DNA of 64,000 nt from Litorimonas cladophorae (GTDB lineage Bacteria; Pseudomonadota; Alphaproteobacteria; Caulobacterales; Maricaulaceae): the NCBI RefSeq assembly GCF_014652455.1, contig NZ_BMYV01000002.1:496001-560000 (forward strand), read 5' to 3'. The notes beneath the pieces are model-generated. The model did no database searches. It was not told the origin of the DNA and saw nothing but the letters and a program-made list of their open reading frames with translations. Of this stretch, positions 23,458-37,747 are shown piece after piece (the stretch's first letter is position 1; each line of letters opens with the position of its first letter). A program made the translations under genes and the position numbers.

Positions 23458-25374
23458 GTGGTTCTCATTAAATCAAAGCGCTTCTTAAGTGTCGTGCTAC
23501 TTGCCATAGTCGGAAGTGTATCGGGTTGTTCACCGTCCAGTGCGCCAGAGGTCGCCGTTGCAAACACGACCGTCGACACGCCATCCGTGGTCTCGGTCAA
23601 TGAAGGGCCCATGTTATGGCATACGCTAACTTTGGACTTTGAGGGTGTAAATACTTCTGAGACGGCAGATTTAAACCCTTTCACCGATTATCGTCTGCTT
23701 GTCGAATTTAGCAATGGCGAGACTTCATATCTGATTAGAGGCTTTTACGCCGCTGACGGAGAGGCAGAGAATACAAGCGCGACATCAGGAAATATTTGGC
23801 GCGTTCGATTTACACCAGATGCCGTCGGACCTTGGACCTATAAGGCGCAGTTTCACAAAGGTGAAAATATAGCGATTAATCGCGATGCCTCGGTCGGTGA
23901 ACCAATTGAATTAGACAAGGCAGTTGGGACTTTCGACGTTGCGCCGTCCACCGCGACAGGTGTGGATTTCAGAGCGTCCGATAGGGGGCGATTGCGAAAA
24001 GACGGGCGATTTTTCCGATTTGAAAGCTCTGGGAAATATTGGTTGAAAGGCGGCCCCAACAGCCCCGAAAACTTGCTGGGGTATGTTGGCTTTGACGACA
24101 CCTATCGTTTGGTCAAACGAAGTCGGGACGGCGAGGCCAGCACAGAAGGTGAAATCCATGCTTTTGAGCCGCATCGAAAAGATTGGAATGAGGGAGACCC
24201 GCTCTGGGGTTTGAAATCGGGCGAACCGCGAGGCCATTCAATGATTGGCGCCATGAATTATTTGGCAGAAGAGGGGATGAACGTCGTTTATTTTCTGACC
24301 AATAATATCACGGGCGATGGCAATGATGTCTGGCCATATGTGTCACCTACAGAGTTTGATCGTTTCGACGTAAGTAAATTAGAGCAGTGGAATGTCCTTT
24401 TTGACCACATGCAATCCAAAGGCATCTTGCTGCATATGGTGACGCAGGAAACTGAAAATGAACGCCTGTTGGATGATGGTGAAACCGAATTTTATCGGTC
24501 ACTTTATTATGCAGAACTCATCTCCAGGTTTGGTCATCACCCTGCATTGATTTGGAATTTGGGTGAAGAGAATGGGCCGTCCAGTTGGATGCAAACAGGC
24601 CAGACCGATCAACAACGTAAAGACATGGCGAGTTTCTTTGCCGAAAATGATCCCTATGACCATACGGTCGTGCTGCATTCTCACGCGGCTGCGGGTGACA
24701 TAGACCACATATTCGCTCCCTTACTGGGACACGCGCCATTGGATGGGATGTCTTTGCAAATCGAAAATGGCGAAGATGTTTATGAGACGACACGAAATTG
24801 GCACAAACGCTCCACCGACGCGGGCAATCAATGGCTGATCACAATGGACGAGATTGGTCCGTGGTTTAATGGGGCTCTGCCTGACAGTTTTGATCCGGAC
24901 CATGACGACTTGCGACGCCATGTGCTCTGGGGGCATCTTCTGGCTGGCGGCGCTGGCGTTGAATGGTATTTTGGGGGTCGTTTCCCATCGAGTGATATCA
25001 GTGCAGAAGATTGGCGCACGCGGCAGAACCTATGGACCCAGACGCGATATGCGCTGGAGTTTTTCGATCAACACCTGCCCTATTGGAAGATGGGCGATTG
25101 TGAAGGCGTGATCGCACGGCCAGACGTGTATTGTTTGGCGGTCCCGAACGAAATTTACGCTTTTTATATGCCGGGTCGGGGAAGCTCTATGGTCTATTTA
25201 CCCGAGTTGGATGCGGGCGAGTATATCGTTGATTGGTTCGACCCAAAGCGGGGCGGCAATTTGCAAACGGGCAGTGTGAGACGCTTAGGAAAAGGCGGGG
25301 GTCAATTTATTGGATATGCGCCGAATACGGAAACGACCGATTGGGTTGTTCTTATTCGCAAACAGTCAAATTAA
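23458..25374 (+). CDS. DUF5060 / glycoside-hydrolase-like lipoprotein
   Basis: 638 residues, starting at GTG because only this start gives the lipoprotein signal (VSGC lipobox). Order: an N-terminal beta-sandwich DUF5060 domain (about 50-150, GNIWRVRFTPDAVGPWTYKA), a TIM-barrel catalytic-type domain (about 180-540), and a C-terminal beta domain of the 'putative collagen-binding' type (WFDPKRGGN). Candidate catalytic acids are the Glu in WNLGEENGPS and the Glu in ITMDEIGPW, at the strand-4 and strand-7 spacing of clan A hydrolases. Relatives act on plant or algal polysaccharides. It is surface or periplasmic. The substrate is unknown, and whether it is a true hydrolase is not proven. Confidence 0.82.
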   Translation: MVLIKSKRFLSVVLLAIVGSVSGCSPSSAPEVAVANTTVDTPSVVSVNEGPMLWHTLTLDFEGVNTSETADLNPFTDYRLLVEFSNGETSYLIRGFYAADGEAENTSATSGNIWRVRFTPDAVGPWTYKAQFHKGENIAINRDASVGEPIELDKAVGTFDVAPSTATGVDFRASDRGRLRKDGRFFRFESSGKYWLKGGPNSPENLLGYVGFDDTYRLVKRSRDGEASTEGEIHAFEPHRKDWNEGDPLWGLKSGEPRGHSMIGAMNYLAEEGMNVVYFLTNNITGDGNDVWPYVSPTEFDRFDVSKLEQWNVLFDHMQSKGILLHMVTQETENERLLDDGETEFYRSLYYAELISRFGHHPALIWNLGEENGPSSWMQTGQTDQQRKDMASFFAENDPYDHTVVLHSHAAAGDIDHIFAPLLGHAPLDGMSLQIENGEDVYETTRNWHKRSTDAGNQWLITMDEIGPWFNGALPDSFDPDHDDLRRHVLWGHLLAGGAGVEWYFGGRFPSSDISAEDWRTRQNLWTQTRYALEFFDQHLPYWKMGDCEGVIARPDVYCLAVPNEIYAFYMPGRGSSMVYLPELDAGEYIVDWFDPKRGGNLQTGSVRRLGKGGGQFIGYAPNTETTDWVVLIRKQSN

Positions 25375-26294
25375 AGGTCTGCGGTTTCTGTCTGCTGAGT
25401 AAACTCAAACCTTATGTCCCCCTTGGTGACATTTTCACCGCATTGCGGACAAATAATTGCGCTCTTCAGCGCGTTTCCGCAGGGTTTATGTGTCAGAATT
25501 AGCGGTGGACCTTCTGGATCCGCGTACCATTTATCGCCCCATTCCATCAACGCGAGGAGTATGGGGTAAATGTCGCGGCCTTTTTCCGTCAGCCGGTAAG
25601 TCGCATCTTTCTTTTGCAGAAATCCCGTCGCGCATAAGCGGGTCAGTCGTTCCGCCAAGACATTTGTGGCCATAGCCGTGTCTTCACAAATGTCCTGATA
25701 ACTATTTAGATTTGTAAAGACTGAGCGCATGATCAGAGTTGACCACCGATCCCCAATCAAATCCGCAATTTCATCAAATAAGGGCGTTTTTTTCGCGTTG
25801 ACGGGTGTTTCTTTGCGCCGTCTGCGGCTATATTCCGCCGGCATTAGCCCAACGCCTGGTCCCTCCGACCAAGACACGTCTCGCGCGTCGACCTCGATCT
25901 TGCAGTCGCCGCAAACCGCGTGTGGCTGCGTTGTTTGTCCGCAGTTTTTGTGAACGAGAGAGAGTTGAATTTTACCGTCTGTTGCGCCCCACTTTTGTTC
26001 CCAGTGCAGCATAGAGAGCGCAATAGGGTAAAGGTCGTAAAACTTTTGAGTGCCACGATATTCAAAACGCTTTGGGCGTTCCGAATAGAGAACTTTTTCA
26101 AAACAGCCAGCCGCGACAAGTTTTCCCAATCGGTCACTTACAACCGTCTTGAGAAGTCCTGTTTGTTTCTGAAACGCACTGAACCGACGCGTGCCCAGCC
26201 AATAGCTTTCTAACAGAAGCAGGCTTGGTTTATCACCGACAATTTCAAGCGATCTCCAAATTGAGCAGGTTTTGATATATTTGGGGGAGGCCAT
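25371..26294 (-). CDS. Double-domain HxlR-family transcriptional regulator
   Basis: 307 residues made of two fused HxlR units. Each is a winged helix followed by a small Cys motif: unit 1 (about 8-145, EIVGDKPSLLLLESYWLGTR, then HKNCG...CGDC) and unit 2 (about 165-300, DLIGDRWSTLIMRSVF, then HKPCG...CPQC). Usual HxlR proteins are 100-150 residues and bind palindromes as homodimers; this looks like a covalent pseudo-dimer whose halves have diverged. The Cys pairs could bind zinc or sense electrophiles. It is divergent from an acyl-CoA ligase, and a 19-bp motif found upstream of every unit in this cluster lies between them. It shares its last four bases with the convergent DUF5060 gene. Confidence 0.88.
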   Translation of the reverse strand: MASPKYIKTCSIWRSLEIVGDKPSLLLLESYWLGTRRFSAFQKQTGLLKTVVSDRLGKLVAAGCFEKVLYSERPKRFEYRGTQKFYDLYPIALSMLHWEQKWGATDGKIQLSLVHKNCGQTTQPHAVCGDCKIEVDARDVSWSEGPGVGLMPAEYSRRRRKETPVNAKKTPLFDEIADLIGDRWSTLIMRSVFTNLNSYQDICEDTAMATNVLAERLTRLCATGFLQKKDATYRLTEKGRDIYPILLALMEWGDKWYADPEGPPLILTHKPCGNALKSAIICPQCGENVTKGDIRFEFTQQTETADL

Positions 26295-26359
26295 AGGGAA
26301 GACTAAACTGATATCGACGTGAAAGAAATGGAAAGCTGTTGTACCTGCCTTTATCTCTA

Positions 26360-26378
26360 GATAGTATGTTTAAACAAG
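26360..26378 (-). promoter_or_regulatory. Shared 19-bp motif, copy 1 (HxlR / acyl-CoA ligase)
   Basis: Reads CTTGTTTAAACATACTATC on the minus strand, 66 bp upstream of the HxlR start and 23 bp before the ligase ATG. It matches the other copies at CTT, TAAAC and TAC. It probably controls both divergent genes, allowing autoregulation. Confidence 0.6.
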
Positions 26379-26401
26379 TAATATCACAGTGAGCTACATT
26401 T

Positions 26402-28066
26402 ATGCGAACGACGCCCCGCGAAAAAATTGAGGCCTTTACAGAGGCAGGATGGTGGGGACAGGATACGCTGAGCTCAATTTTTCAAGAAACGCTTGCGGCG
26501 GCCCCTGATGATCTTGCTTTGTGTGATCCAATAAATCGCGGGGACCTCGTGGGCGGTGTCGCCTTGCGTCTTTCTTTCCGAGAGCTCGATTCAAAAGTGG
26601 ATCACGTCGCGCGCCGCTTATTTGAGGCGGGCTTGCGCCAAGATGATAAAATTCTCGTGCAAATGCCAAATGTGGCGGAAATTGTATTTGTCTATCTGGC
26701 GGCAGCGCGATTGGGATTGATCGTCAGTCCCGTGGCGATGCAATACGGACATCATGAGTTGGAGCATATTTGCGGCGTGATAGAGCCGAAGGCTTATATC
26801 GCTTTTATAGACTTCCGAGGTGAACCTTTCGGCCAAGCGCAATCTCCGATCTTGAATGAGGATTGTCAGCTGCTTCTCTTCGGTGAAGAAGGTGATTTTC
26901 AGACTGAACCCGCCCAATCAGGTGACTATGACGTCTATATTGAGGGGGTTGAAATTACCGCCAATGATATTTTCACAATCTGTTGGACCTCTGGCACAAC
27001 GGGGCGGTCCAAAGGTGTGCCGCGCAGTCACAATCATTGGCTTTCCTCGACACTTGCCAGTGAAGACGCGATCCAACTTGGTATGGGGGCCGTTATGCTC
27101 AACCCATTCCCCTTCATCAATATGGCGGCCATTGGCGGATTTTTGTATTATTGGCTGAAAATACGCGGCCAGTTGGTTTTACATCATCCGTTTGATCCCA
27201 TGGTCTTCCTCAGCCAGCTTCAAAATGAAAAGGCTGAATATACCATTGCGCCGCCCGCCGTTTTGACGCGTTTGCTGCAAACGAAAGATCAGATAAAGGC
27301 TGGCTTTGATCTATCCGCATTGCGCATTATTGGATCTGGAAGTGCGCCATTGAGTCCTGCCATGATAACGGGTTTCAAAGAAGAATTTGGAATTGACGTT
27401 GTCAATATTTTTGGATCGAACGAGGGCATGGCAATCTTGAGTGGAGCCGTAGACGTTCCAGACTCTGTCGAGCGGGCCTCATTCTTTCCTAGGTTCGGGC
27501 GGACGGAGCATGAGTGGGCCAATCGAATATCAAAGCGTATAAAGACGAAGCTCGTGAACCCTGAAACCGGAGACGAAATCACAACGCCGGGTGTGTCTGG
27601 GGAATGCCATATTTCAGGCGCAACAGTCTTTGACGGCTATTATAACTCTCCCGATGACAACGCTGAAGCGTTCGCGGAGGACGGATATTTTCGAACGGGT
27701 GACCTTTTTGAAATCGCGGGTGACAATAATGAGTTTTATCGTTTTGTAGGACGCTGCAAATCTCTCATCGTACGGGGCGGCGTCAATATATCACCTGAGG
27801 AGTTAGATGAACTGATTTCCTCTCACCCGAAAGTCGCTGAAGGCGTCGCGGCGGCATATTCCGACGCGGTCATGGGGGAGAAAATCTGTGCCGTTGTCGT
27901 CTTGCATGACGGCGAAGACTTGAGCCTAGAGCAATTAAATGCGTTCATGTCACAAAAAAAGGTCGCGAAATTTAAGTGGCCAGAGCGCCTACATATTATG
28001 AAAGCGCTACCTCGCAATGCAATGAATAAAGTTGTCAGGCGCGAACTGGAAACACTGATCGCTTAG
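26402..28066 (+). CDS. AMP-forming acyl-CoA synthetase/ligase
   Basis: 554-residue ANL-superfamily enzyme that activates a carboxylic acid to an acyl-adenylate and then the CoA thioester. Core motifs in order: A3 P-loop TSGTTGRSKGVPRS (about residue 198), A5 NIFGSNEG, A7 YFRTGDLFEI, A8 hinge GRCKSLIVRGGVNISPEE, and A10 with the catalytic Lys in RNAMNKVVRREL. It is closest in layout to cyclohexanecarboxylate- and benzoate-type ligases. First gene rightward of the HxlR regulator, under motif copy 1. In the cluster it would activate the acid made by the PaaN-type aldehyde dehydrogenase for thiolytic breakdown. Confidence 0.9.
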   Translation: MRTTPREKIEAFTEAGWWGQDTLSSIFQETLAAAPDDLALCDPINRGDLVGGVALRLSFRELDSKVDHVARRLFEAGLRQDDKILVQMPNVAEIVFVYLAAARLGLIVSPVAMQYGHHELEHICGVIEPKAYIAFIDFRGEPFGQAQSPILNEDCQLLLFGEEGDFQTEPAQSGDYDVYIEGVEITANDIFTICWTSGTTGRSKGVPRSHNHWLSSTLASEDAIQLGMGAVMLNPFPFINMAAIGGFLYYWLKIRGQLVLHHPFDPMVFLSQLQNEKAEYTIAPPAVLTRLLQTKDQIKAGFDLSALRIIGSGSAPLSPAMITGFKEEFGIDVVNIFGSNEGMAILSGAVDVPDSVERASFFPRFGRTEHEWANRISKRIKTKLVNPETGDEITTPGVSGECHISGATVFDGYYNSPDDNAEAFAEDGYFRTGDLFEIAGDNNEFYRFVGRCKSLIVRGGVNISPEELDELISSHPKVAEGVAAAYSDAVMGEKICAVVVLHDGEDLSLEQLNAFMSQKKVAKFKWPERLHIMKALPRNAMNKVVRRELETLIA

Positions 28067-28131
28067 CGCGCATAAGATTACCGAGAAGGAAAACTCCCAA
28101 AAATTATCACGTGAGGGGCAAAAATAATTGG

Positions 28132-28150
28132 CTTGCGTAAACATACCTAC
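28132..28150 (+). promoter_or_regulatory. Shared 19-bp motif, copy 2 (TonB receptor)
   Basis: CTTGCGTAAACATACCTAC, 53 bp before the TonB-receptor ATG. Differs from copy 3 at only one of 19 positions, although the two lie 8 kb apart and their flanks differ. Confidence 0.7.
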
Positions 28151-28203
28151 TGAAATACCAATGTGGCATACGCAACATAGATTGCATTTCGAAGGGGAAG
28201 TTC

Positions 28204-30522
28204 ATGACAAAAATTAATTTGCTAGGCGCATCCATATTGGCCTTAAGCATTTGTTTGCCCGCCGCCGCGCAGGCGCAGGTGTTAGACGAAATTATCGTTA
28301 CTGCTCAAAAACGCGCGCAGGGGCTCCAAGATGTTCCGATTTCAATTTCTGCCGTCACGGGCGCTACGATTGAAAACAGGAGTATCGATAGTTTGTCGGA
28401 ACTCTCATCTTCCGTTCCCAACTTCTATATCCAAGAAAATCAAATTGACTCCTCGATCTCGGTTCGTGGCGTCACAACGGGTAACAATAAGGGGTTTGAA
28501 CAATCTGTCGGCATGTATTTTGACGGCATTTCTTTCGGCCGAAGCCAGCTTGTCCGTACACCGCTTGTCGACTTGGAGCGTGTAGAGGTCCTGCGGGGGC
28601 CACAGCCGACCTTGTTTGGCAAAAATGCGATTGCGGGTGCCGTCAATGTTGTATCCGCGAAACCCACCGATGAGTTCGAAGGCAAGCTGTCGCTAAGCTA
28701 TGAATTTAATCACGAAGAGCCGCAGGCCTTGGGAGTGATTTCTGGCCCCATCGCAGAAAACCTAAATGGTCGCCTTACCGCGTCCTATCGGGAGCTAGGC
28801 GGCTGGATCAACAACACGCAGCTTGATCGTTTGGAACCTCAACGGGATGAACTCTATTTCCGCGGACAGCTTGAATATGACAATGGCGGGCCATTAAACT
28901 TAAACTTCAAAGGCGAATACGCTACATTTGATAGCTATGGCTACGCTATGGAAGCGCTCCTGCCACAAGACGGCTACTCAACTGTTTTCGCAGGGCCAAT
29001 CGCTGTGGAAACCAATGAAGATAATGTGCGTGCGAGTAATGATGTCCAAAGCCTAAACGATATGTTCAATGCCGTTGTCACTGCAAATTATGATCTCGGC
29101 GAACATACCCTGACATCCATCACGGGTTATGTGGAATATGATACGAAAGAAATTCTGGACGTTGACTACACGGGCCTCGATATTTTGGATGGCACCAATC
29201 AGTCGGAGAAATATAACCAGTTTTCTCAGGAGTTAAGGATTGCCTCCCCGGGCGGCGAAACATTCGATTATATTGGCGGGGTTTTTTACCAGAACAATAA
29301 TGCCGATGTCACAGACCAAGTTTTCTTAGGACAATTTCTTGCGTTGGCTGGACCGCCAGTCTCCTTCCTTGTCGACTCATTTTGGGATCGCGAATTTGAA
29401 CAAAGCTCCGATTTGTACTCTGTTTTCGCCCAAGGTGATTATCGCATCACCGACCAGTTGACGTTGACAGCTGGCGCGCGTTTATCGCATGAGGAAAAAA
29501 CGGGCGCGCGGACGCTAGTTATTGATGCCCTGCCATCCAATGCTGCTCCGCAGGCGACTCTGGAAGCTCTCTGGGCTGCCGTCCTTAACGTGGGGCCCCA
29601 TCAAGTTCCTACCGCCGGACTTAATGGCAGCCAGTTTGATGGCAAAATCAAAGAAACAAATTTCGACCCCCTCGTTCGTTTGCAGTATGAGGCCAGCGAT
29701 AATGTTTCGCTCTATGCGTCCTATACTCAAGGTTCAAAAGCCGGCGGGTTTGATATTCGCAGTAATTCTATTCCCGGAACCCCCGGTATTGGGAACCCTG
29801 GCACATTCGAGTTTGATGGTGAAAGCGCGACCAATTACGAGCTTGGGGCAAAAATGGGGTGGGACCAAGTTCGCCTGAATGTCAGCGCGTTCCAAACCGA
29901 TTATGATGACCTGCAAACCAACATCTTTGACGGGGTATTGGGGTTCCTTGTTCAAAACGCTTCCGCTGCAAAGGTGAAAGGCATTGAGGCCGACGGTCGT
30001 TTCTTGGTAAATGATAATCTTCAATTCTACGCTTCAGCCGCTATTTTAGATTATAAGTTTACGAGCTTTACGGATAGCCAATGTGCGTATCAGGAGACCC
30101 CGACAAACGGGACGTTCTGTGATCGATCTGGCGCAACCGCGCCCTTCGCGCCCGATTTCACGTCAAACTTTGGTTTAGATTATAATAGAGATATTTCCGA
30201 GAACCTCGAATTTGATCTCAACATCAATGTGGATACATCGTCGAGTTACTTCCTAACAACGAATTTGGATGGAAATCTAATCGAGGATGGCTTTACCAAG
30301 CTTGGTGGCCAGATCGGGATTAGCGGCGGCGAAAACACATGGCGTCTTTCCCTGATTGGGGACAACCTGACCAATGAGCGTATTCGTGTACTTGGCGGTA
30401 CGCTTCCTTTGGCCCGTACATTTGTTCAATTGGCCTCTGGTGGGGCGTTGGATGGGACTGGCTATAATGCGATTTATGCACGGCCGCGAAATATTACGCT
30501 GAAGCTGGACTATAATTTCTAA
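28204..30522 (+). CDS. TonB-dependent outer-membrane receptor
   Basis: 772 residues. A signal peptide (cleavage after AQA, about residue 23) is followed by a TonB box-like DEIIVTAQKR, a plug domain (about 35-160, with ERVEVLRGPQPTLFGKNAIAGAVNVVS), and a 22-strand barrel ending in LDYNF with the terminal Phe needed for assembly. The NLDYNR/iron-type TonB plug resembles those of many sphingomonad and Caulobacter-like receptors that import hydrophobic or oligomeric organics rather than siderophores. GAAGGGG precedes ATG. Motif copy 2 in its promoter ties it to the surrounding acyl-CoA/dioxygenase genes, so it likely imports the pathway substrate. Confidence 0.93.
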   Translation: MTKINLLGASILALSICLPAAAQAQVLDEIIVTAQKRAQGLQDVPISISAVTGATIENRSIDSLSELSSSVPNFYIQENQIDSSISVRGVTTGNNKGFEQSVGMYFDGISFGRSQLVRTPLVDLERVEVLRGPQPTLFGKNAIAGAVNVVSAKPTDEFEGKLSLSYEFNHEEPQALGVISGPIAENLNGRLTASYRELGGWINNTQLDRLEPQRDELYFRGQLEYDNGGPLNLNFKGEYATFDSYGYAMEALLPQDGYSTVFAGPIAVETNEDNVRASNDVQSLNDMFNAVVTANYDLGEHTLTSITGYVEYDTKEILDVDYTGLDILDGTNQSEKYNQFSQELRIASPGGETFDYIGGVFYQNNNADVTDQVFLGQFLALAGPPVSFLVDSFWDREFEQSSDLYSVFAQGDYRITDQLTLTAGARLSHEEKTGARTLVIDALPSNAAPQATLEALWAAVLNVGPHQVPTAGLNGSQFDGKIKETNFDPLVRLQYEASDNVSLYASYTQGSKAGGFDIRSNSIPGTPGIGNPGTFEFDGESATNYELGAKMGWDQVRLNVSAFQTDYDDLQTNIFDGVLGFLVQNASAAKVKGIEADGRFLVNDNLQFYASAAILDYKFTSFTDSQCAYQETPTNGTFCDRSGATAPFAPDFTSNFGLDYNRDISENLEFDLNINVDTSSSYFLTTNLDGNLIEDGFTKLGGQIGISGGENTWRLSLIGDNLTNERIRVLGGTLPLARTFVQLASGGALDGTGYNAIYARPRNITLKLDYNF

Positions 30523-30551
30523 CCTGGATTCAATATCCCTGCGACTGAACT

Positions 30552-30579
30552 GGCCGGAGCTCTGCTTCGGCCTTTTTTT
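30552..30579 (+). terminator. Rho-independent terminator of the TonB receptor gene
   Basis: A 9-bp stem, GGCCGGAGC with GCTTCGGCC (one G-U pair), a TCT loop, and a run of seven T directly after. It is 29 bp downstream of the receptor stop and oriented for it. Confidence 0.9.
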
Positions 30580-30611
30580 GTGTCTGGTGGACAGGAAAAC
30601 AAGCGCTTTGT

Positions 30612-31061
30612 CTAAGTTGCGCGCTGCCACTCCAAAATGTGGTGACGCTGCTCTCCGTTTTTTAAAAACTCATAAGCGGATAGGCTCAATTTATTTGGCC
30701 CTTTAAATTCGGCTTTGCGGATTTGCTGAGTTCCGACCATGTTCGGGTTCATGGAAAGTTTCACGTTATGAAGGACGGTCTTGCCAGAAATGCTCCATGT
30801 CCCTGCGTAATGGAAATAACTATCAAAATGATGGGCTTTATCGCCATCAGAGGCATTCCGCACATTGCCTTGTTTGATTGGTTGTCTGTCCCCTCGAGAG
30901 ACTGTGGCTGACATGTGGCCATCTTCCGCGTAAAGGATTTGACCAATTGCGTCCTCGCCAAAGGGTCGCGTAACGCCGCCATCACTATATTCAATGCGCC
31001 AATCCACGAGTGACCATCCACCGTAAAATTGCTCGGGGTATAGGATGGAGTTCGGCATCAA
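30612..31061 (-). CDS. Lipocalin-like domain protein
   Basis: 149 residues forming one small beta-barrel of the Lipocalin_5 type: FYGGWSLVDWRIEYSDG at the start, GQILYAEDGHMSATVSR, then a FDSYFHYAGTW strand and a C-terminal HHILEWQR. No signal peptide, so cytoplasmic. Members often sit in catabolic clusters and may bind a hydrophobic intermediate; no enzyme activity is established. Its ATG overlaps the PaaN-like stop by 4 bp, making it the last gene of the thiolase operon. Convergent with the TonB receptor. Confidence 0.75.
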   Translation of the reverse strand: MMPNSILYPEQFYGGWSLVDWRIEYSDGGVTRPFGEDAIGQILYAEDGHMSATVSRGDRQPIKQGNVRNASDGDKAHHFDSYFHYAGTWSISGKTVLHNVKLSMNPNMVGTQQIRKAEFKGPNKLSLSAYEFLKNGEQRHHILEWQRAT

Positions 31062-32728
31062 GCAGGCGACCTAAACTGAACGATACGAAAGCGGTTCGCG
31101 ACAAAAGCCAGATCAGACAGGCATGCATTCCCTGCGGGGTTCAAACCCGTCACGTGAAAATCACTATAGGCAGCTGCAAAATTAATCGGCATGGGAACCG
31201 TCATATTACACCAAAGTGATGCGCCCGCATTGGCAAAAGCGTCCTGAGCTTTCTCTGTAAAATCATCATCCGCGCTATAAAGATAAGATGAAATCGCCCC
31301 AAACTCTCTCGCAAGAGTTGTCGCATTTTCCAATGCCGCTTCCGCGCTCTCTTCTTTAATGAGAAAAGAAACGGGCGCGAAATGTTCTTCTTGATACAGG
31401 GGGCGATCTTTCGCGCCAACTTCAAGGATCAATGGGGTCGCGGTCCGTGCATTGGGAAATTCAGGGTGGTCATATGGCCGTGTATCCAAAGCAATTTGCG
31501 CGCGCGGGTCAGTTTGTAAGTCGCGTAAAATCGCTAAGGACTGATCCGCTTGAATAGCCCCACACATTGCGGCGGCCCGGCGCGGTTCTGCCAATCGGTC
31601 TCGAATGGTTTGGCTAAGTCGGTCTTTAAACTCATTAAAAGAGATGGGCCCTTCATCGCTTATAAAACCGTCTTTTGGCACATGAATGTTTTGCGGGCTG
31701 GTGCACATTTGGGCAGAAAATCCGCAGAGGGCATTGGCGAGACCCGAGATCAATCCTTTGAGATTATCCGTTGAGTGAATGACCACACCATTGCAGCCCG
31801 CCGTTTCCGTAAAGACAAGTTTGTCCGCGCAGTTTTTTTCAATCCAAGTTCCAAATCTCTGGCTGCCTGTATAATCAATGATTGCCGTGGTTTCATGCTG
31901 CAGCAGGTCAATCGTAATTGGGGCGTCGCGTGTATCTGCCGCCATGATGACGAGGTTCGGATCATGTCCTGCACCTTCCAATATCGCCCGCATTTTCTTG
32001 ACCGCAATCGCGACGGGCAAAATGCCATTGGGATGAGGTTTTACGATAACAGGGTTACCCGTCGCGAGATTGGCGAAAATTGCCGGATAGGCATTCCACA
32101 TGGGGAAGGTTGCACAACAGACGACGATGGCGGTCCCACGCGGCATTAGGCGATATGACTTCTTCAGCGTAACCACACCTGCTTTGCCGAATGGCTTTGT
32201 CCATGTCGCCGATGTCGCAATGTCGCTCATAGCTTTATGGGCATAAGTGAGCGCTTCGATCCCGCGATCTAGGGCGTTGGGACCACTGCCGGAATAGGCC
32301 ATCAAGAAGGCCTGTCCCGCCGTGTGCATGGTGGCATAGGCATTCTCGAAACATTGTTCTTCCAAGGCAAAAGCCATCTCAAAACACAAGCCAACCCGTT
32401 CTTCGGGAGAAATGGCCTTCCAACTGTGCATCGCTGTTTTTGATGCCGACATGATGACATCGACATCGACGTGGGGGTAATCAATGCCGAGTGGGGCTTG
32501 TGTGTAGGGGGAAATTTCAAACCCAATCCGTCCAATTTCACCAGGTTGGTCAAGCGGGAAGGGGGTGTTCAGCCGCGCCTCAAAAGCAGTTTTGCCCGCT
32601 TCATGCGCGCCTGCGGGATGTAGCGTGCGGCTGGGACTTTCGGTAAAAGCGCTCCAATATTCCCGCGTCGCACAAGCCTCAACGGCCATGTCTAGAGCCG
32701 CCTTATGTTTCAGAAAGTGCTGCATCAC
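31058..32728 (-). CDS. PaaN-type aldehyde dehydrogenase
   Basis: 556-residue aldehyde dehydrogenase superfamily member of the PaaN family, annotated from phenylacetate clusters as a ring-opening or semialdehyde dehydrogenase. Motifs: MPRGTAIVVCCATFPMWNA at the cofactor site, VKPHPNGILP, the general-base Glu in VFTETAGCNGV, and the nucleophilic Cys in FSAQMCTSPQNI (about residue 342). It would oxidise an aldehyde to the acid, or with CoA to the thioester. No paaABCDE or paaG genes are nearby, so the substrate is probably not phenylacetyl-CoA. It overlaps the upstream thiolase and the downstream lipocalin gene by 4 bp each. Confidence 0.85.
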   Translation of the reverse strand: MMQHFLKHKAALDMAVEACATREYWSAFTESPSRTLHPAGAHEAGKTAFEARLNTPFPLDQPGEIGRIGFEISPYTQAPLGIDYPHVDVDVIMSASKTAMHSWKAISPEERVGLCFEMAFALEEQCFENAYATMHTAGQAFLMAYSGSGPNALDRGIEALTYAHKAMSDIATSATWTKPFGKAGVVTLKKSYRLMPRGTAIVVCCATFPMWNAYPAIFANLATGNPVIVKPHPNGILPVAIAVKKMRAILEGAGHDPNLVIMAADTRDAPITIDLLQHETTAIIDYTGSQRFGTWIEKNCADKLVFTETAGCNGVVIHSTDNLKGLISGLANALCGFSAQMCTSPQNIHVPKDGFISDEGPISFNEFKDRLSQTIRDRLAEPRRAAAMCGAIQADQSLAILRDLQTDPRAQIALDTRPYDHPEFPNARTATPLILEVGAKDRPLYQEEHFAPVSFLIKEESAEAALENATTLAREFGAISSYLYSADDDFTEKAQDAFANAGASLWCNMTVPMPINFAAAYSDFHVTGLNPAGNACLSDLAFVANRFRIVQFRSPA

Positions 32729-33942
32729 ACTCTCTCAATAATCATAGCACTACCGATGCCGCCGCCAGCATGGGTCACAACTAAACCGAGTTTGCCGCCA
32801 CATCGTTCTAATTCATGCACCAGCGACGTCAGAAGGATTGCACCGGTCGCCCCCATTGGATGCCCCATAGCCAAGTGACCGCCATTGACATTGACCTTGT
32901 CCATGTCCGGTTTGTAGTCGCGATAGAATTTCAGCGGAACGGCCGCGAAGGCTTCCATAAATTCGATGCGATCAAAATCTGCAATCGTTAAACCAGATTC
33001 GGCCATCACCTGTTCCATCGCCTTAAACCCCGCACCAAATTGTAAGACGGGGTCCCCAGAGGTTTCCGCAAAAGCGCGTATTTTTGCCTTCGGCTTTAAG
33101 CCATATTTGTTAGCGGCTTTCTCACCTCCTAAGAGCACCAGTGCTGCCCCATCGGCCATGCCGGGGCAGTTGGCGAAGGAGTGGATATGAGAAATTTCAC
33201 TCAGCTCGGGGTTCTCTGCCAGCATCATGTCGTCAAACCCTGCCGCGCCTTGATCGGCGAATGCTGGCTGCATTGCGTTGAGTTGTTCCATCGTCATTTT
33301 CCCGCGAATTAGTTCATCCCGGTCCAGAACTGTCTCCCCGTCGCGGGTAACGGGCGCAACGCTCTTGTCATAATGCCCCTTTTCCCATGCGGCTTCAGCG
33401 CGGAGGTGAGATAAGAGCGTGATTTCATCCAAATCCGTTTTGGTGAAGCCGTCTTTTGACGCAATCAGTTCCGCCCCCATGATTGGCGGCGCCCATTTCA
33501 AACGCTTGGCAATTGCGGGGTCAGAATAATAGATGGCTTTGTCCGCCAGAAACCCAACTTGTGACAAACACTCAACGCCGCCAGCTAACATGAGTTCGCC
33601 AGGACAAAGGTGTGACCAAGCCGCACTTTGATTGACGGCGGTTAAGCCCGAGACACAATAATTATTTATCGTCGAAACGGAGGTGCTGTCAGGAAGGCCC
33701 GCCGCCAAACGACTGACGAGGGCTATGTGACCGCCTTGCGCGCCGACTTGTCCGACACAGCCGAGCGAAAGGCGAGAAACTTGACTTTTAATAGCAGAAT
33801 TTCGGTCACTCAAAACCTGCGTCAATCCCGCGACTAAATCATGCGGGGCGACCTTGGAAAGTGCGCCGCCCGGCTTATCATTTTTAGCCGCGCGTCCTTT
33901 CCCGCGAGGTGTTCTGACGGCGTCGAAAATGAATGTGGCCAC
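32725..33942 (-). CDS. Thiolase (acetyl-CoA acyltransferase family)
   Basis: 405-residue thiolase I/II-type enzyme. The acyl-accepting Cys is in NNYCVSGL (C96) and the catalytic His in GHPMGATGA (H361). The second catalytic Cys expected in the C-terminal CxGGG-like motif is replaced: the sequence reads VVTHAGGGIG, placing His391 at that position. That change could alter thiolysis chemistry or mean a specialised acyltransferase. Second gene of the four-gene operon; its start follows the SCP2-type thiolase stop by 3 bp, and its end overlaps the PaaN gene. It would cleave a beta-ketoacyl-CoA to acetyl- or propionyl-CoA. Confidence 0.88.
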   Translation of the reverse strand: MATFIFDAVRTPRGKGRAAKNDKPGGALSKVAPHDLVAGLTQVLSDRNSAIKSQVSRLSLGCVGQVGAQGGHIALVSRLAAGLPDSTSVSTINNYCVSGLTAVNQSAAWSHLCPGELMLAGGVECLSQVGFLADKAIYYSDPAIAKRLKWAPPIMGAELIASKDGFTKTDLDEITLLSHLRAEAAWEKGHYDKSVAPVTRDGETVLDRDELIRGKMTMEQLNAMQPAFADQGAAGFDDMMLAENPELSEISHIHSFANCPGMADGAALVLLGGEKAANKYGLKPKAKIRAFAETSGDPVLQFGAGFKAMEQVMAESGLTIADFDRIEFMEAFAAVPLKFYRDYKPDMDKVNVNGGHLAMGHPMGATGAILLTSLVHELERCGGKLGLVVTHAGGGIGSAMIIERV

Positions 33943-33945
33943 GGT

Positions 33946-35175
33946 CTAAACGCCAATCATAAAGGACACATTTGTTGTGCCCGATCCGCCCACGTTGAAT
34001 GTGCCAACGGTCTTTGCGTTTTCAACTTGCATATCACCCGCGCGGCCGGACGTTTGGCGTGCCGCGTCCAGCATCATGCGTACGCCCGTCGCCCCGACGG
34101 GGTGACCTAATCCGATTAACCCACCAGACGGATTGATCGGAATATCGCCGCTCATGCTGATGCGTTCGGCTTCAATGGCTTTCCAGGCTTCGCCTGGCGC
34201 GGTCAGGCCGAAATGTTCGATCGCCATATATTCTGTGATGGAGAAACAATCGTGTGTTTCGATCGCGTCCAGCGCTTCGGGGCCAGGCAAGCCCGCGCGC
34301 TTATAGGCGTCCGTAATCGCTTTGCGGGTCCATGGGAAAACATAGCCGCCATCAGCGCTTTCTTGCATTTTTGTCTGCATCAACATGGGCGCGGTCGTGT
34401 GACCCCAGCCTTTAATAAAGGGAATGTTATCGAGTCGAAGGCCACGGTCTTTGGCATATTTGGCGGCGCGTTCTTCTGAGGCGAGAATGACGACAGCGGC
34501 ACCATCGGTGACCTGCCCACAATCCTGGCGGCGCATCCAGCCTTCAATAACGGGGTTAGCCTCATCATCTTGCGAGAAGCTTTTTTCCGTGAAATCCCAT
34601 TTTCGCGTTTGAGAGTTGGGGTTATTTTTGCCATTCGCAAAATTAATTTTGGAGATTGCTGAAAGGTGTTTGTAGTTCAGGCCGAAACGGTCTTCATAAA
34701 TGTCGCAAAGATCAGAAAACATGGCGGGCCAGAGATATTTTGCGCCTAAGGCTTCGCGACCGACCCAAGCTGCCGCGCCTAGATTTTTGGCCGCAATCGC
34801 GCCGGGGACATTGCGCATAAGCTCGACACCGACAACGCAGGCAGTTTTGTAGTGCCCGCTTTCAATATCTCGCATAGCGGCGAGGATGGCGAGCGACCCT
34901 GACGCGCAAGCGCCTTCATGCCGAGATGATGGCAGGCCAGAAAAATCAGGGTGCACATGGCCGAAATAACCACCCAACATGCCTTGGCCTGTAAAGAGTT
35001 CGGCAACGAAATTTCCGACATGGCCAACCTCGATATCTTTGGGTTCTAGATCAGCATCGTCTAATCCTGACAACACAGCAGACGAAAAAAGATCAAACAG
35101 CGATTTATTGGATCGGCTCCAATTCTCAGAAAAGTCGGTCTGTGCGCCGCCGAGAATATAAATCTTCTTACCCAT
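33946..35175 (-). CDS. SCP2-type thiolase
   Basis: 409 residues of the sterol-carrier/SCP2-thiolase branch, typical of branched or ring-containing acyl-CoA breakdown. The nucleophilic Cys is in RHEGACASGS (C90), an active His in IETHDCFSITEY, and another in GLGHPVGATG. It ends TFNVGGSGTTNVSF, the branch's glycine-rich C-terminal motif. First gene of the minus-strand operon with thiolase, PaaN-type dehydrogenase and lipocalin-like protein. GGAGG-like sequence precedes the ATG. Motif copy 4 lies 53 bp upstream. Two thiolases side by side suggest two successive chain-shortening steps or one for a branched intermediate. Confidence 0.88.
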   Translation of the reverse strand: MGKKIYILGGAQTDFSENWSRSNKSLFDLFSSAVLSGLDDADLEPKDIEVGHVGNFVAELFTGQGMLGGYFGHVHPDFSGLPSSRHEGACASGSLAILAAMRDIESGHYKTACVVGVELMRNVPGAIAAKNLGAAAWVGREALGAKYLWPAMFSDLCDIYEDRFGLNYKHLSAISKINFANGKNNPNSQTRKWDFTEKSFSQDDEANPVIEGWMRRQDCGQVTDGAAVVILASEERAAKYAKDRGLRLDNIPFIKGWGHTTAPMLMQTKMQESADGGYVFPWTRKAITDAYKRAGLPGPEALDAIETHDCFSITEYMAIEHFGLTAPGEAWKAIEAERISMSGDIPINPSGGLIGLGHPVGATGVRMMLDAARQTSGRAGDMQVENAKTVGTFNVGGSGTTNVSFMIGV

Positions 35176-35227
35176 TTAGGCCTCCATATCCTCCAAGGTC
35201 TATCGCTTGCTATGAATGAGGGCAAGA

Positions 35228-35246
35228 GTTAGTACGTTTATGAAAG
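35228..35246 (-). promoter_or_regulatory. Shared 19-bp motif, copy 4 (thiolase operon / nitronate monooxygenase)
   Basis: CTTTCATAAACGTACTAAC on the minus strand, between the divergent SCP2-type thiolase and the nitronate monooxygenase-like gene. It is the most diverged copy (CTT, TAAAC, TAC and final C kept). It lies 20 bp before ATG 35267. Confidence 0.55.
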
Positions 35247-35266
35247 TGACGAAAGGCAAGTTAATA

Positions 35267-36205
35267 ATGGCGACTAAATTGAAGTCATCCGCGAGCGCGC
35301 TTTTTGATAATCTCAAACTTCCCGTCATTGCTGCGCCGATGTTTTTGGTTTCGGGTCCTACGCTGGTCAAAGCTTGCCGCCGCGAAGGTGTCATTGGGTC
35401 TTTTCCCTTTCCAAATGCGCGCACAATTGAAACATTGGATGGGTGGCTGGATGATTTACGCCGCAGTGCCATACTGACCGATGCGCCTCTGGCGGTGAAT
35501 CTCACCACGCATCGCAGTTATGACCGTTTAGCTGATGAGATCGCACTCATTGAAAACCACAAGCCTGAAATCGTGATTACGGCGCTAGGTGGCCCTGAAC
35601 CCGTCTTGGATGTCGTGCATAGATATGGCGGCAAGGTGATTGCCGATGTGAATTCAGTCAAATATGCGCGGAAAGCGATTGAAAAAGGCGTGGATGGTCT
35701 TGCGCTGGTGAGCGCAGGGGCAGGTGGACATACGGGCCATATGTCGGGCTTCGCGTTTGTGTCCGAGGTCAGAGATATCTTTGATGGATTAGTCATCTTG
35801 GCTGGTGGGATCGGAACGGGGGCTGCTATTCGCGCAGCGGAGATCGCAGGCGCGGACCTTTGCTATATGGGGACCACCTTTATCGCTGCCGAAGAAAGTA
35901 TCGCGACTGCCGAGTATAAAGAGATGCTTGTGAAAGCTGGCTTTGAAGATTTAGTTCTCAGTGATGCGCTCACTGGAGCCAAGGCCTATTACCTTCGTCA
36001 GTCTCTAGAGAAGATGGGATATGATCCCGACAATATGGCCGCCGGATCTGGTCTGGATTTGTCAGACTCGCAAAGCCAAATTAAGGCTTGGCGAGATGTT
36101 TGGTCCGCGGGGCATGGAGTCGGCTCTGTGAAAAGCGTTGAACCAGCGGCGAAGATTATCGCCCGCCTAAAACATGAATATGATGAAGCTTGCAAAACGG
36201 CCTAA
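35267..36205 (+). CDS. Nitronate monooxygenase / 2-nitropropane dioxygenase-like FMN enzyme
   Basis: About 312 residues, FMN TIM barrel. It starts LFDNLKLPVIAAPMFLVSGP, the family's N-terminal signature, with phosphate-binding GGIGTGAAIRAAEIAGADLCYMGT (phosphate loop) and VSAGAGGHTGH carrying the catalytic His. Start ATG 35267 has AAAGG upstream; in-frame ATGs at 35240 and 35216 are nearer or inside the regulatory motif and less likely. Members oxidise alkyl nitronates, but many in acyl-CoA clusters act as flavin reductases or enoyl reductases of unknown substrate. Here it is divergent from thiolases, so a role in redox steps of the same pathway is inferred, not proven. Confidence 0.85.
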   Translation: MATKLKSSASALFDNLKLPVIAAPMFLVSGPTLVKACRREGVIGSFPFPNARTIETLDGWLDDLRRSAILTDAPLAVNLTTHRSYDRLADEIALIENHKPEIVITALGGPEPVLDVVHRYGGKVIADVNSVKYARKAIEKGVDGLALVSAGAGGHTGHMSGFAFVSEVRDIFDGLVILAGGIGTGAAIRAAEIAGADLCYMGTTFIAAEESIATAEYKEMLVKAGFEDLVLSDALTGAKAYYLRQSLEKMGYDPDNMAAGSGLDLSDSQSQIKAWRDVWSAGHGVGSVKSVEPAAKIIARLKHEYDEACKTA

Positions 36206-36221
36206 AATTGGCTAGGGATAA

Positions 36222-36240
36222 CTTGCATAAACATACCTAC
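36222..36240 (+). promoter_or_regulatory. Shared 19-bp motif, copy 3 (carotenoid oxygenase)
   Basis: CTTGCATAAACATACCTAC, 37 bp before the ATG of the carotenoid-oxygenase-family gene. Identical to copy 2 except for one base. Confidence 0.7.
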
Positions 36241-36277
36241 CTTTCCCTGTCTAACCCTAGGCAGACTGGAGCTCGCC

Positions 36278-37747
36278 ATGAACGCGCCATTTACACCCTC
36301 CGAAGCCCTTTTACAGGACGCGCCATTCGGCTATGAACATGGCCCAATGCTGACAGGGCCTTTTGCACCTGTTCTTGAAGAAGAAGTGCTAACTGACCTG
36401 CCTGTTGACGGTGAAATTCCGGCAGATTTAAACGGCGTTTACCTGCGCAATGGTCCAAACCCCCGTTTTAAACCCAAAGGGGCTTACCACCCTTTTGACG
36501 GTGATGGCATGATCCACGCTGCACATTTTAAAGATGGGAAATTGACCTATCGCAATAAATGGGTGCGCACCGAAGGGTGGCTGAAAAATGATGCGGCAGG
36601 CGAAGAGAGCCATTGGGGGATTATGACGAGTCTTAAAGGACGGGACGATATGCCAATGGCGGATGCTGCGAATACTGACGTTATTGGGCACGCCGGGAAA
36701 GCCGTCGCGACGTGGTATTTGGCAGGCAAACCCTGCCTTCTGGATCCAATCACCTTGGAAACACTTGAGGTCGTTGATTACTCAAGCGGTGTGGGCCAAG
36801 GCGTATCTGCCCATCCTAAAGTAGATGAAGAAACGGGCGAGATGATGTTCTTCGACTATTTCGATCACGCGCCTTTTATGGCCTATGGTGTCGTCGACAA
36901 GGCTGGAAAACTTGTGCATCACGTCCCAATTGAATTGCCGGGAAACCGCCTGCCGCATGATATGGGTGTCTCTAAAAATTACTCCATTTTACACGATTTA
37001 CCCGTCTATCATGATGAAGCCGCGCTGGCTGCGGGACGCCATAAAATTAGGTTTAACGCTTCAATGAAATCTCGTTTCGGTGTTATTCCGCGCTACGGTA
37101 AAGCTGACGAAATCAAGTGGTTCGAATTCTCGCCCTGTTTCCTCTATCATGTCATCAATTGTTGGGAAGAAGGCGACGAGGTCGTTATGGTGGCCTGCCG
37201 CTTTATGCCCGTCAAAAATGAAGACGGTGAAATCGACGAGGTCCGCACGGCGAAAATGATTGCCAATCTAGGCATGGATGCGCGTCTCTGGCGCTATCGT
37301 ATGAATTTGAAAACGGGCGAGTCTTCAGAGGAATGCCTGAACGCCGATCTAAATTGCGAGTTTCCAAGCTATGACAGTTCGCGAACGGGCGTTTATAGCC
37401 AATATGCGTATCTCGTTGATCATAACCCTAAGACATTGCATTGGACAGGCATCCGGAAGTTCAACACTGACACGGGTGAAAGTCTCGGTAATTGGTCCGA
37501 TGGTGCGGCGCATTGCTGGTATAGCGAGCCTTGGTTTGCGCCTGCTGACAACCCAAAAAGCGAAGACCACGGCTATGTGATAACTTTCATGTGGAACGAT
37601 AAATTGCGTGAGCAAGAGTTGCAGGTTTTTGATGCGCTCGACATCAGCGCCGGCCCCGTTGCTCGGGTGAAGATGCCACACGCGATTCCGGTGGGGTTCC
37701 ATGCCTGTTGGATGAAACCATCGCAGATTGAGAGCTGGTCCGCTTAG
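36278..37747 (+). CDS. Carotenoid-oxygenase-family alkene-cleaving dioxygenase
   Basis: 489-residue seven-bladed propeller non-heme iron enzyme (RPE65/CCD/lignostilbene dioxygenase family). The four iron-binding His are seen at H179 (SAHPK), H227 (LPHDMG), H291 (LYHVIN) and H475 (VGFHACW), close to family spacing. N-terminal landmarks are GVYLRNGPNPRF and DGDGMIH. It cleaves a C=C bond with O2 to two aldehydes or ketones; the substrate may be an apocarotenoid or a stilbene-type compound, which I cannot decide by eye. Under motif copy 3, it would start the cluster pathway, feeding aldehydes to the PaaN-type dehydrogenase. No signal peptide. Confidence 0.92.
   Translation: MNAPFTPSEALLQDAPFGYEHGPMLTGPFAPVLEEEVLTDLPVDGEIPADLNGVYLRNGPNPRFKPKGAYHPFDGDGMIHAAHFKDGKLTYRNKWVRTEGWLKNDAAGEESHWGIMTSLKGRDDMPMADAANTDVIGHAGKAVATWYLAGKPCLLDPITLETLEVVDYSSGVGQGVSAHPKVDEETGEMMFFDYFDHAPFMAYGVVDKAGKLVHHVPIELPGNRLPHDMGVSKNYSILHDLPVYHDEAALAAGRHKIRFNASMKSRFGVIPRYGKADEIKWFEFSPCFLYHVINCWEEGDEVVMVACRFMPVKNEDGEIDEVRTAKMIANLGMDARLWRYRMNLKTGESSEECLNADLNCEFPSYDSSRTGVYSQYAYLVDHNPKTLHWTGIRKFNTDTGESLGNWSDGAAHCWYSEPWFAPADNPKSEDHGYVITFMWNDKLREQELQVFDALDISAGPVARVKMPHAIPVGFHACWMKPSQIESWSA

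Follow-up and report, generated by a model that had tools for sequence, protein, structure and literature searches.

The stretch of DNA analyzed here (the window) comprises 64,000 nucleotides of Litorimonas cladophorae, contig NZ_BMYV01000002.1, and includes a block of nine genes with four copies of a 19-bp element (Table 1). The genes encode a TonB-dependent receptor, a dioxygenase of the carotenoid oxygenase family, an aldehyde dehydrogenase, two thiolase-like enzymes, a coenzyme A (CoA) ligase, a flavoprotein resembling nitronate monooxygenase (NMO), a lipocalin-like protein and a regulator with two HxlR domains. The prediction that these nine genes form one regulon, controlled by this regulator, is well supported. 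The fusion of two HxlR domains in one chain was missed by the first-pass annotation of this DNA, and it would account for the asymmetry of the element.

The four copies of the element are real, and each was located in the window sequence at the coordinates and on the strand originally claimed. As was also proposed, an element lies 5' of every transcription unit in the block, including the regulator gene, which shares its site with the ligase gene. Distances from site to start codon are about 20-66 bp. Because the thiolase, thiolase-like, aldehyde dehydrogenase and lipocalin-like genes abut, they probably form an operon. The longest NMO-like open reading frame (35216-36205) would overlap operator 3, and the later start listed in Table 1 is presumed instead. 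One detail of the annotation was incorrect: the match at 18 of 19 positions assigned to copies 2 and 3 is that between the copies at 28132 and 36222, the second and fourth by coordinate, and the second and third copies agree at 14 of 19.

Table 1. Genes of the block and predicted operator sites, in coordinates of the window
Feature	Position	Strand	Details
Tandem HxlR regulator, 307 aa	25371..26294	-	PF01638, E = 1.7e-24, in two stretches; Cys-bearing tail after each domain
Operator 1	26360-26378	-	CTTGTTTAAACATACTATC; divergent hxlR/CoA-ligase gap; independent-matrix rank 4; same gap in L027 and L028
Acyl-CoA ligase (AMP-binding)	26402..28066	+	PF00501, E = 4.6e-59; PF13193
Operator 2	28132-28150	+	CTTGCGTAAACATACCTAC; 5' of TonB receptor; independent-matrix rank 3; same gap in L028
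TonB-dependent outer-membrane receptor	28204..30522	+	PF00593, PF07715
Lipocalin_5-type protein, last in thiolase operon	30612..31061	-	PF13924, E = 1.4e-33
PaaN-type aldehyde dehydrogenase	31058..32728	-	TIGR02288, 592.6 bits (cut-off 578.75)
Thiolase-like protein lacking the usual second catalytic Cys	32725..33942	-	PF00108/PF02803; His at this position
Thiolase, first gene of the operon	33946..35175	-	NF004936, 621.7 bits (cut-off 375)
Operator 3	35228-35246	-	CTTTCATAAACGTACTAAC; divergent thiolase operon/NMO-like gap, shared; independent-matrix rank 2; same gap in L027
NMO/FabK-like flavoprotein	35267..36205	+	PF03060, E = 2.7e-26; start presumed
Operator 4	36222-36240	+	CTTGCATAAACATACCTAC; 5' of carotenoid oxygenase; independent-matrix rank 1; L026 and L027 likewise have it 5' of their dioxygenase genes
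Carotenoid-oxygenase-family dioxygenase	36278..37747	+	PF03055, E = 2.8e-122

A strict consensus matches the window twice at up to three mismatches (at 28132 and 36222), compared with 0.03 matches expected. We rejected the loose skeleton CTT/TAAAC/TAC as stand-alone evidence: its 10 matches at up to two mismatches, compared with 8.3 expected, are no excess over shuffled sequences. The two weaker copies therefore cannot be claimed from the window by means of this skeleton; they are credible because they are retained in relatives and are found by a matrix derived without window sequence.

The genome-wide search suggested in the first-pass annotation, in which many equally good copies elsewhere would have counted against a dedicated regulon, was carried out. 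In the 3,023,839-base genome, a degenerate pattern derived from the four sites has three perfect matches and one with two mismatches, all of them in the block, and no further match at up to two mismatches. Allowing three mismatches adds seven matches outside the block, and the pattern written backwards has 32 at up to three mismatches. Because the backwards pattern also has three genome matches at up to two mismatches, the number four is in itself no excess, which is a point against our reading, and the evidence is instead the clustering of the four sites within 10 kb.

The three relatives with the closest loci (L026, L027 and L028) retain the element in those corresponding gaps that are still present. 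L026 and L027 have copies in the thiolase/NMO region and 5' of the carotenoid oxygenase; L027 and L028 have one between hxlR and the ligase gene, and L028 has another ahead of its TonB receptor gene. The NMO gene is absent between the thiolase and dioxygenase genes of L026, yet both sites, that of operator 3 and that of the dioxygenase, are present. They are separated there by about 50 bp, between these two genes (L026:3940-4140). Matches to the pattern at up to two mismatches fall inside the locus in 2 of 2 cases in genome G052, 2 of 2 in G054 and 2 of 3 in G014. A looser criterion, allowing up to four mismatches from one or other of two consensus forms and without a chance control, gives a match in 17 of 20 family loci.

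The element also follows the tandem HxlR gene into other bacteria. A scan of genome contigs for relatives of the regulator found 542 loci, of which the best 80 were used. They derive from relatives of Hellea, Algimonas, Marinicauda and Maricaulis, from sphingomonads, Phenylobacterium, Kordiimonas, rhizobia and others, and from some beta- and gammaproteobacteria. A tandem-length frame is present in 76 of the 80, and 68 of these regulators together with that of the window constitute alignment A2; a smaller alignment, A1, has 19 of the 21 regulators of the window and 20 loci, with the near-duplicate L037 and the cut-off L044 omitted. The fetched stretch has a carotenoid oxygenase match in 39 of the 68 A2 loci and none in 29. 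Motif counts refer to 79 loci, which include four that have no tandem-length frame and omit L046, the same region as L027.

In these 79 loci (1.45 Mb), a matrix made from 11 sites of the window and the three close relatives has 103 matches of at least 14 bits, compared with 6 for the reversed matrix. De novo discovery, with no window sequence, used 27 of the 37 loci longer than 8 kb that lack a carotenoid oxygenase in the fetched stretch. Without seeding, 17 rhizobial and other tandem-HxlR loci gave ACTTGCATTAyTAGACTwA (log-likelihood 217, versus 52 and 54 in two shuffles), and 10 Caulobacterales loci, seven of them from Phenylobacterium, gave ACTTkCAwwACrATACTyAm (114, versus 46 and 46 when shuffled). 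Shuffles in all de novo runs, and in the single-domain pattern test described below, were mononucleotide. Applied to the 64 kb, the 27-locus matrix ranks the four window sites first to fourth, with 20.2, 16.6, 14.5 and 11.1 bits, and the next match has 8.3. A family matrix iterated from 14 seeds, among them window sites, finds 229 sites, compared with 8 when reversed, and has sites in 74 of the 79 loci. The family operator consensus is 20 bp, RCTTKCATWANNADACYNA, with roughly 13.5 bits in columns 1-10 and 7 bits in columns 11-20.

Gene neighborhoods vary among these loci. A cluster related to that of the window is present in the culturable relatives Algimonas arctica (L071) and Qipengyuania flava (L060). 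For example, the tandem HxlR gene of Afipia (L105) has as neighbors a branched-chain-type ABC transporter, an iron alcohol dehydrogenase, an enoyl-CoA hydratase and molybdenum hydroxylase subunits; motif sites are present, and the locus probably forms a further catabolic regulon built on this operator architecture. Because neighboring genes differ among motif-bearing loci, the element belongs to the regulator family and not to carotenoid oxygenase clusters. The earlier proposal of one regulon under one motif, with the local HxlR protein in charge, thus gains support from the footprint of conservation, from the single-locus distribution and from the tracking of the tandem HxlR gene despite differing catabolic genes.

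The same observations bear on whether the element might instead serve a sigma factor as a promoter element, for example with TTGCAT as an atypical -35 box, or be bound by a global regulator. By eye, some copies, such as one in L028, have TTGCAT at 17 bp from a hexamer resembling a -10 box. Within two mismatches, however, the element is confined to one locus of the genome; it occurs in both orientations relative to gene starts (63 the same, 35 opposite across loci); and it accompanies tandem HxlR genes in other bacteria with other neighbors. Given the single-locus distribution and mixed orientation, we rejected a sigma-factor box, and we regard an explanation of this general kind as very improbable.

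Some results count against the reading of the element as the operator of the tandem regulator. The 27 de novo loci were chosen by taxon and by the missing oxygenase after the result of the 11-site matrix was known. With their matrix, the fourth site (11.1 bits) is barely above the best match of the reversed matrix (10.6). The matrix from the 17 loci also ranks the sites first to fourth, but its reversed control reaches 13.4 bits, more than the 11.6 of the fourth site, and the Caulobacterales-only matrix ranks the window sites 1, 2, 4 and 6. Among relatives, the hxlR gene of L026 follows the thiolase gene and has no site directly before it, and 3 of the 20 relatives' loci (L032, L034 and L044) have no match at up to four mismatches.

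The regulator scores 85.9 bits with PF01638 (cut-off 20.8), and so belongs to the HxlR winged-helix family. It departs from the arrangement of one domain per chain, having two diverged domains in a single chain of 307 amino acids, and is in this respect a tandem variant. An AlphaFold2 model has a mean predicted local distance difference test score (pLDDT) of 92 and a predicted template modeling score (pTM) of 0.90; the helices taken as recognition helices are at about residues 49-61 and 210-222 of this model. Foldseek finds PA1607 and PA1374 as the best structural matches, with HypR, YodB and HxlR further down. Counting its own, 19 of the 137 genomes of the family have an orthologue at E<=1e-40. 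Most of the 20 fetched family loci have several block genes as neighbors; L043 has none, and L044 has a weak TonB match only.

Like the HxlR/MarR-DUF24 proteins HxlR, HypR and YodB of Bacillus subtilis and PA1607, the window regulator has the HxlR winged helix, here in each half, and an N-terminal Cys (residue 10). It differs from them in its two non-identical domains per chain, its asymmetric operator and the lack of a Cys-x-Lys motif. HxlR proteins are described as binding DNA in dimeric form, and family members are reported to sense electrophiles or oxidants through a conserved N-terminal Cys, in PMC7835342, which gives the formaldehyde switch of B. subtilis HxlR as Cys11/Lys13. The Cys-x-Lys switch is absent from the window regulator, in which the corresponding residues are Cys10-Ser11-Ile12. 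Of the regulators at carotenoid-oxygenase loci, 30 of 39 have Cys10, as do 15 of 29 at other loci, and it is possible that the regulator senses an aldehyde product.

We examined the operators of single-domain relatives. The set comprised 32 single-domain relatives of an HxlR protein that has the domain-2 helix type, all located by tblastn, from 30 of 40 loci found plus L129 and L174; L152 proved to be itself tandem and was excluded. The upstream pattern ACTWKCA-N3-TGMWAGT, at up to one mismatch, is present for 13 of the 20 regulators whose helix has Asn, for none of the 11 with Thr and for the only one with Ser, whereas shuffled sequences average 4.4 to 5.4 mismatches. The difference between Asn and Thr helices has a Fisher p of 0.0004, uncorrected for kinship. 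Palindrome-constrained discovery (width 21, nine Asn loci) gave TcACTTGCA-N3-TGCAAGTgA, with a score of 97 compared with 24 and 27 for shuffles. The half-site of the palindrome ACTTGCA-N3-TGCAAGT is the left half of the window and tandem element. Single-domain HxlR proteins with an IAPNIL-type helix share the recognition-helix type and the half-site ACTTKCA with the tandem regulator, and differ from it in having one domain and a palindromic operator.

When the tandem operator is folded on the same center, its left arm is kept and its right arm is changed, with C instead of G in column 16 of 94% of sites. The recognition helices show a parallel difference: across the family, that of domain 2 (IATNIL..RL) has a mean distance of 0.27, compared with 0.45 for domain 1, and the left half of the operator is likewise less variable than the right (0.16 versus 0.30). 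Mantel tests were performed with the 46 A2 regulators having at least two sites. The left half correlates with the domain-2 helix given the domain-1 helix (partial Mantel r = 0.33, p 0.002) and hardly with domain 1 when domain 2 is controlled for (r = 0.09, p 0.14). The right half correlates with the domain-1 helix given the domain-2 helix (r = 0.36, p 0.001). The helix comparison thus gives moderate support to an assignment of the left half to domain 2 and of the right half mainly to domain 1.

This assignment meets several difficulties. The right half also tracks the domain-2 helix, more weakly (r = 0.205, p 0.001), comparison of whole domains does not favor either domain for the left half, and the Mantel data still contain shared ancestry. 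Two of the 13 positives, L129 and L174, had served to frame the single-domain pattern, and 7 of the 20 Asn-type regulators have no palindrome at up to one mismatch. In motif discovery, an unconstrained width-21 model, TcACTTGCaaAAtGaaAGT.A, fits better (117, with 50 and 47 for shuffles) than the palindromic model with its 97, and a palindromic run at width 17 settled on a different motif.

A different geometry was in fact preferred initially, in which the HxlR protein regulates the block through a direct repeat (ACTT...ACYW, 14 bp apart), bound head to tail or by two chains. Operator columns 1-4 and 15-18 look alike, and some loci have closely spaced pairs of sites. This geometry was abandoned given the single-domain palindromes, since relatives with the same helix type carry ACTTGCA as an inverted repeat; moreover, the sites in the window are single. 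It now appears rather improbable.

For the broken palindrome, the predicted mechanism is as follows. The tandem HxlR protein would be in effect a single-chain dimer that binds RCTTKCATWANNADACYNA before each transcription unit. Its domain 2 would keep the half-site ACTTKCA on the left, which is found on both sides in the palindromes of single-domain relatives, and its diverged domain 1 would read the changed half-site on the right. Because the sites lie close before start codons, and elsewhere occur in either orientation, we infer repression, as for operators that cover core promoters, and the substrate or the aldehyde product might relieve it. We consider it likely, with good confidence, that the block functions as one self-contained catabolic regulon, restricted to this locus and controlled by a tandem HxlR protein on a broken-palindrome operator. 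Support is strong for the regulon and its regulator, moderate for the half-site model and weak for the identity of the substrate.

We also lean toward a more general proposal. In it, a widespread family of naturally fused HxlR repressors, found in alpha-, beta- and gammaproteobacteria, would have converted what was a palindromic operator into an asymmetric form, with one domain keeping the ancestral half-site while its fused twin evolved a new one. Regulators of unrelated pathways would thus share an operator architecture, and the choice of Asn or Thr in the helix would set the ACTTGCA half-site. For 5 of the 11 Thr-helix single-domain HxlR proteins (L177-L189), the best site is of an ACTATCG type instead of ACTTGCA, which makes this residue (Asn211 in domain 2 of the window regulator) a candidate one-residue specificity switch. 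A further palindrome, TTGACTtaGtaCtaagTCAA, occurs upstream of the regulators of L126-L145, which mostly have an IARRVL-type helix (palindromic fit 189 versus 28-30 when shuffled, inflated by near relatives). These first 20 single-domain HxlR proteins belong mostly to other subfamilies and were not used for the half-site argument, except for the Asn-helix L129.

The dioxygenase belongs to the carotenoid oxygenase (RPE65) family, scoring 409.6 bits with PF03055, and has all four metal-ligand His residues (179, 227, 291 and 475). It thereby resembles the carotenoid cleavage dioxygenases, such as plant CCD1, LsdA and the apocarotenoid oxygenases, and differs from them in scoring below every curated equivalog cut-off and in being part of a CoA-dependent cluster. 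With NCBIfam, it reaches 250.7 of 675 bits for 8'-apo-carotenoid, 221.6 of 800 for lignostilbene and 192.5 of 650 for NOV2 enzymes. A hydrophobic, alkene-bearing substrate, as originally proposed, would fit the gene set. In the predicted pathway, a hydrophobic polyene would be imported by the TonB receptor and cleaved at a C=C bond by the dioxygenase; the aldehyde would then be oxidized by the PaaN-type enzyme, activated with CoA and subjected to thiolase chemistry.

The regulon could be correct and the substrate still be a stilbene or phenylpropanoid instead of an apocarotenoid or another polyene. Among solved relatives, lignostilbene dioxygenases rank second (182 bits), and the NCBIfam lignostilbene score given above points in the same direction. 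The best solved relative, however, is a plant carotenoid 9,10-dioxygenase (9luz), with 262 bits; the residues that we take to contact the 4-hydroxyl of lignostilbene, Tyr101 and Lys134 of LsdA, are replaced in the alignment by Ile and Leu; and the curated cut-off is reached for neither type of enzyme. We consider a stilbene or phenylpropanoid possible and rather unlikely, and the comparison weakly favors an apocarotenoid or similar polyene over lignostilbene. Among the fetched loci, dioxygenase relatives with 65-92% identity occur in L026, L027/L046, L047, L049 (Pseudidiomarina) and L075 (Pseudovibrio), and other loci have a relative with 37-47% identity in a similar setting. This distribution suggests two dioxygenase subfamilies and perhaps horizontal transfer.

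The aldehyde dehydrogenase exceeds the family cut-off for the PaaN-type enzyme of phenylacetate catabolism. Unlike in the phenylacetate (paa) system, its gene lies beside a carotenoid oxygenase, and PaaA/PaaC (PF05138) had no match in its own genome in a search whose control matched in 4 of 14 genomes. Given this absence, the enzyme probably oxidizes an aldehyde from the pathway of the block, plausibly the product of the dioxygenase.

Among the papers listed from the literature searched, which lacks most subscription journals, we recognized none on a tandem HxlR operator or on this cluster. The operator provides a testable regulatory code for a large and apparently little-studied group of fused HxlR proteins, predicting targets in any genome that carries one, and gene fusion is suggested as a route to operator asymmetry. 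The nine genes are in addition a candidate pathway for bacterial use of carotenoid-derived or similar polyenes.

Finally, the thiolase-like protein at 32725-33942 may not perform ordinary thiolysis. The usual Cys position is occupied by His, Thr, Ser, Gln or Leu in 30 of the 34 matches that cover it (some regions counted twice), and the second catalytic Cys is kept in the thiolase-like matches of L101, L117, L118 and L123.

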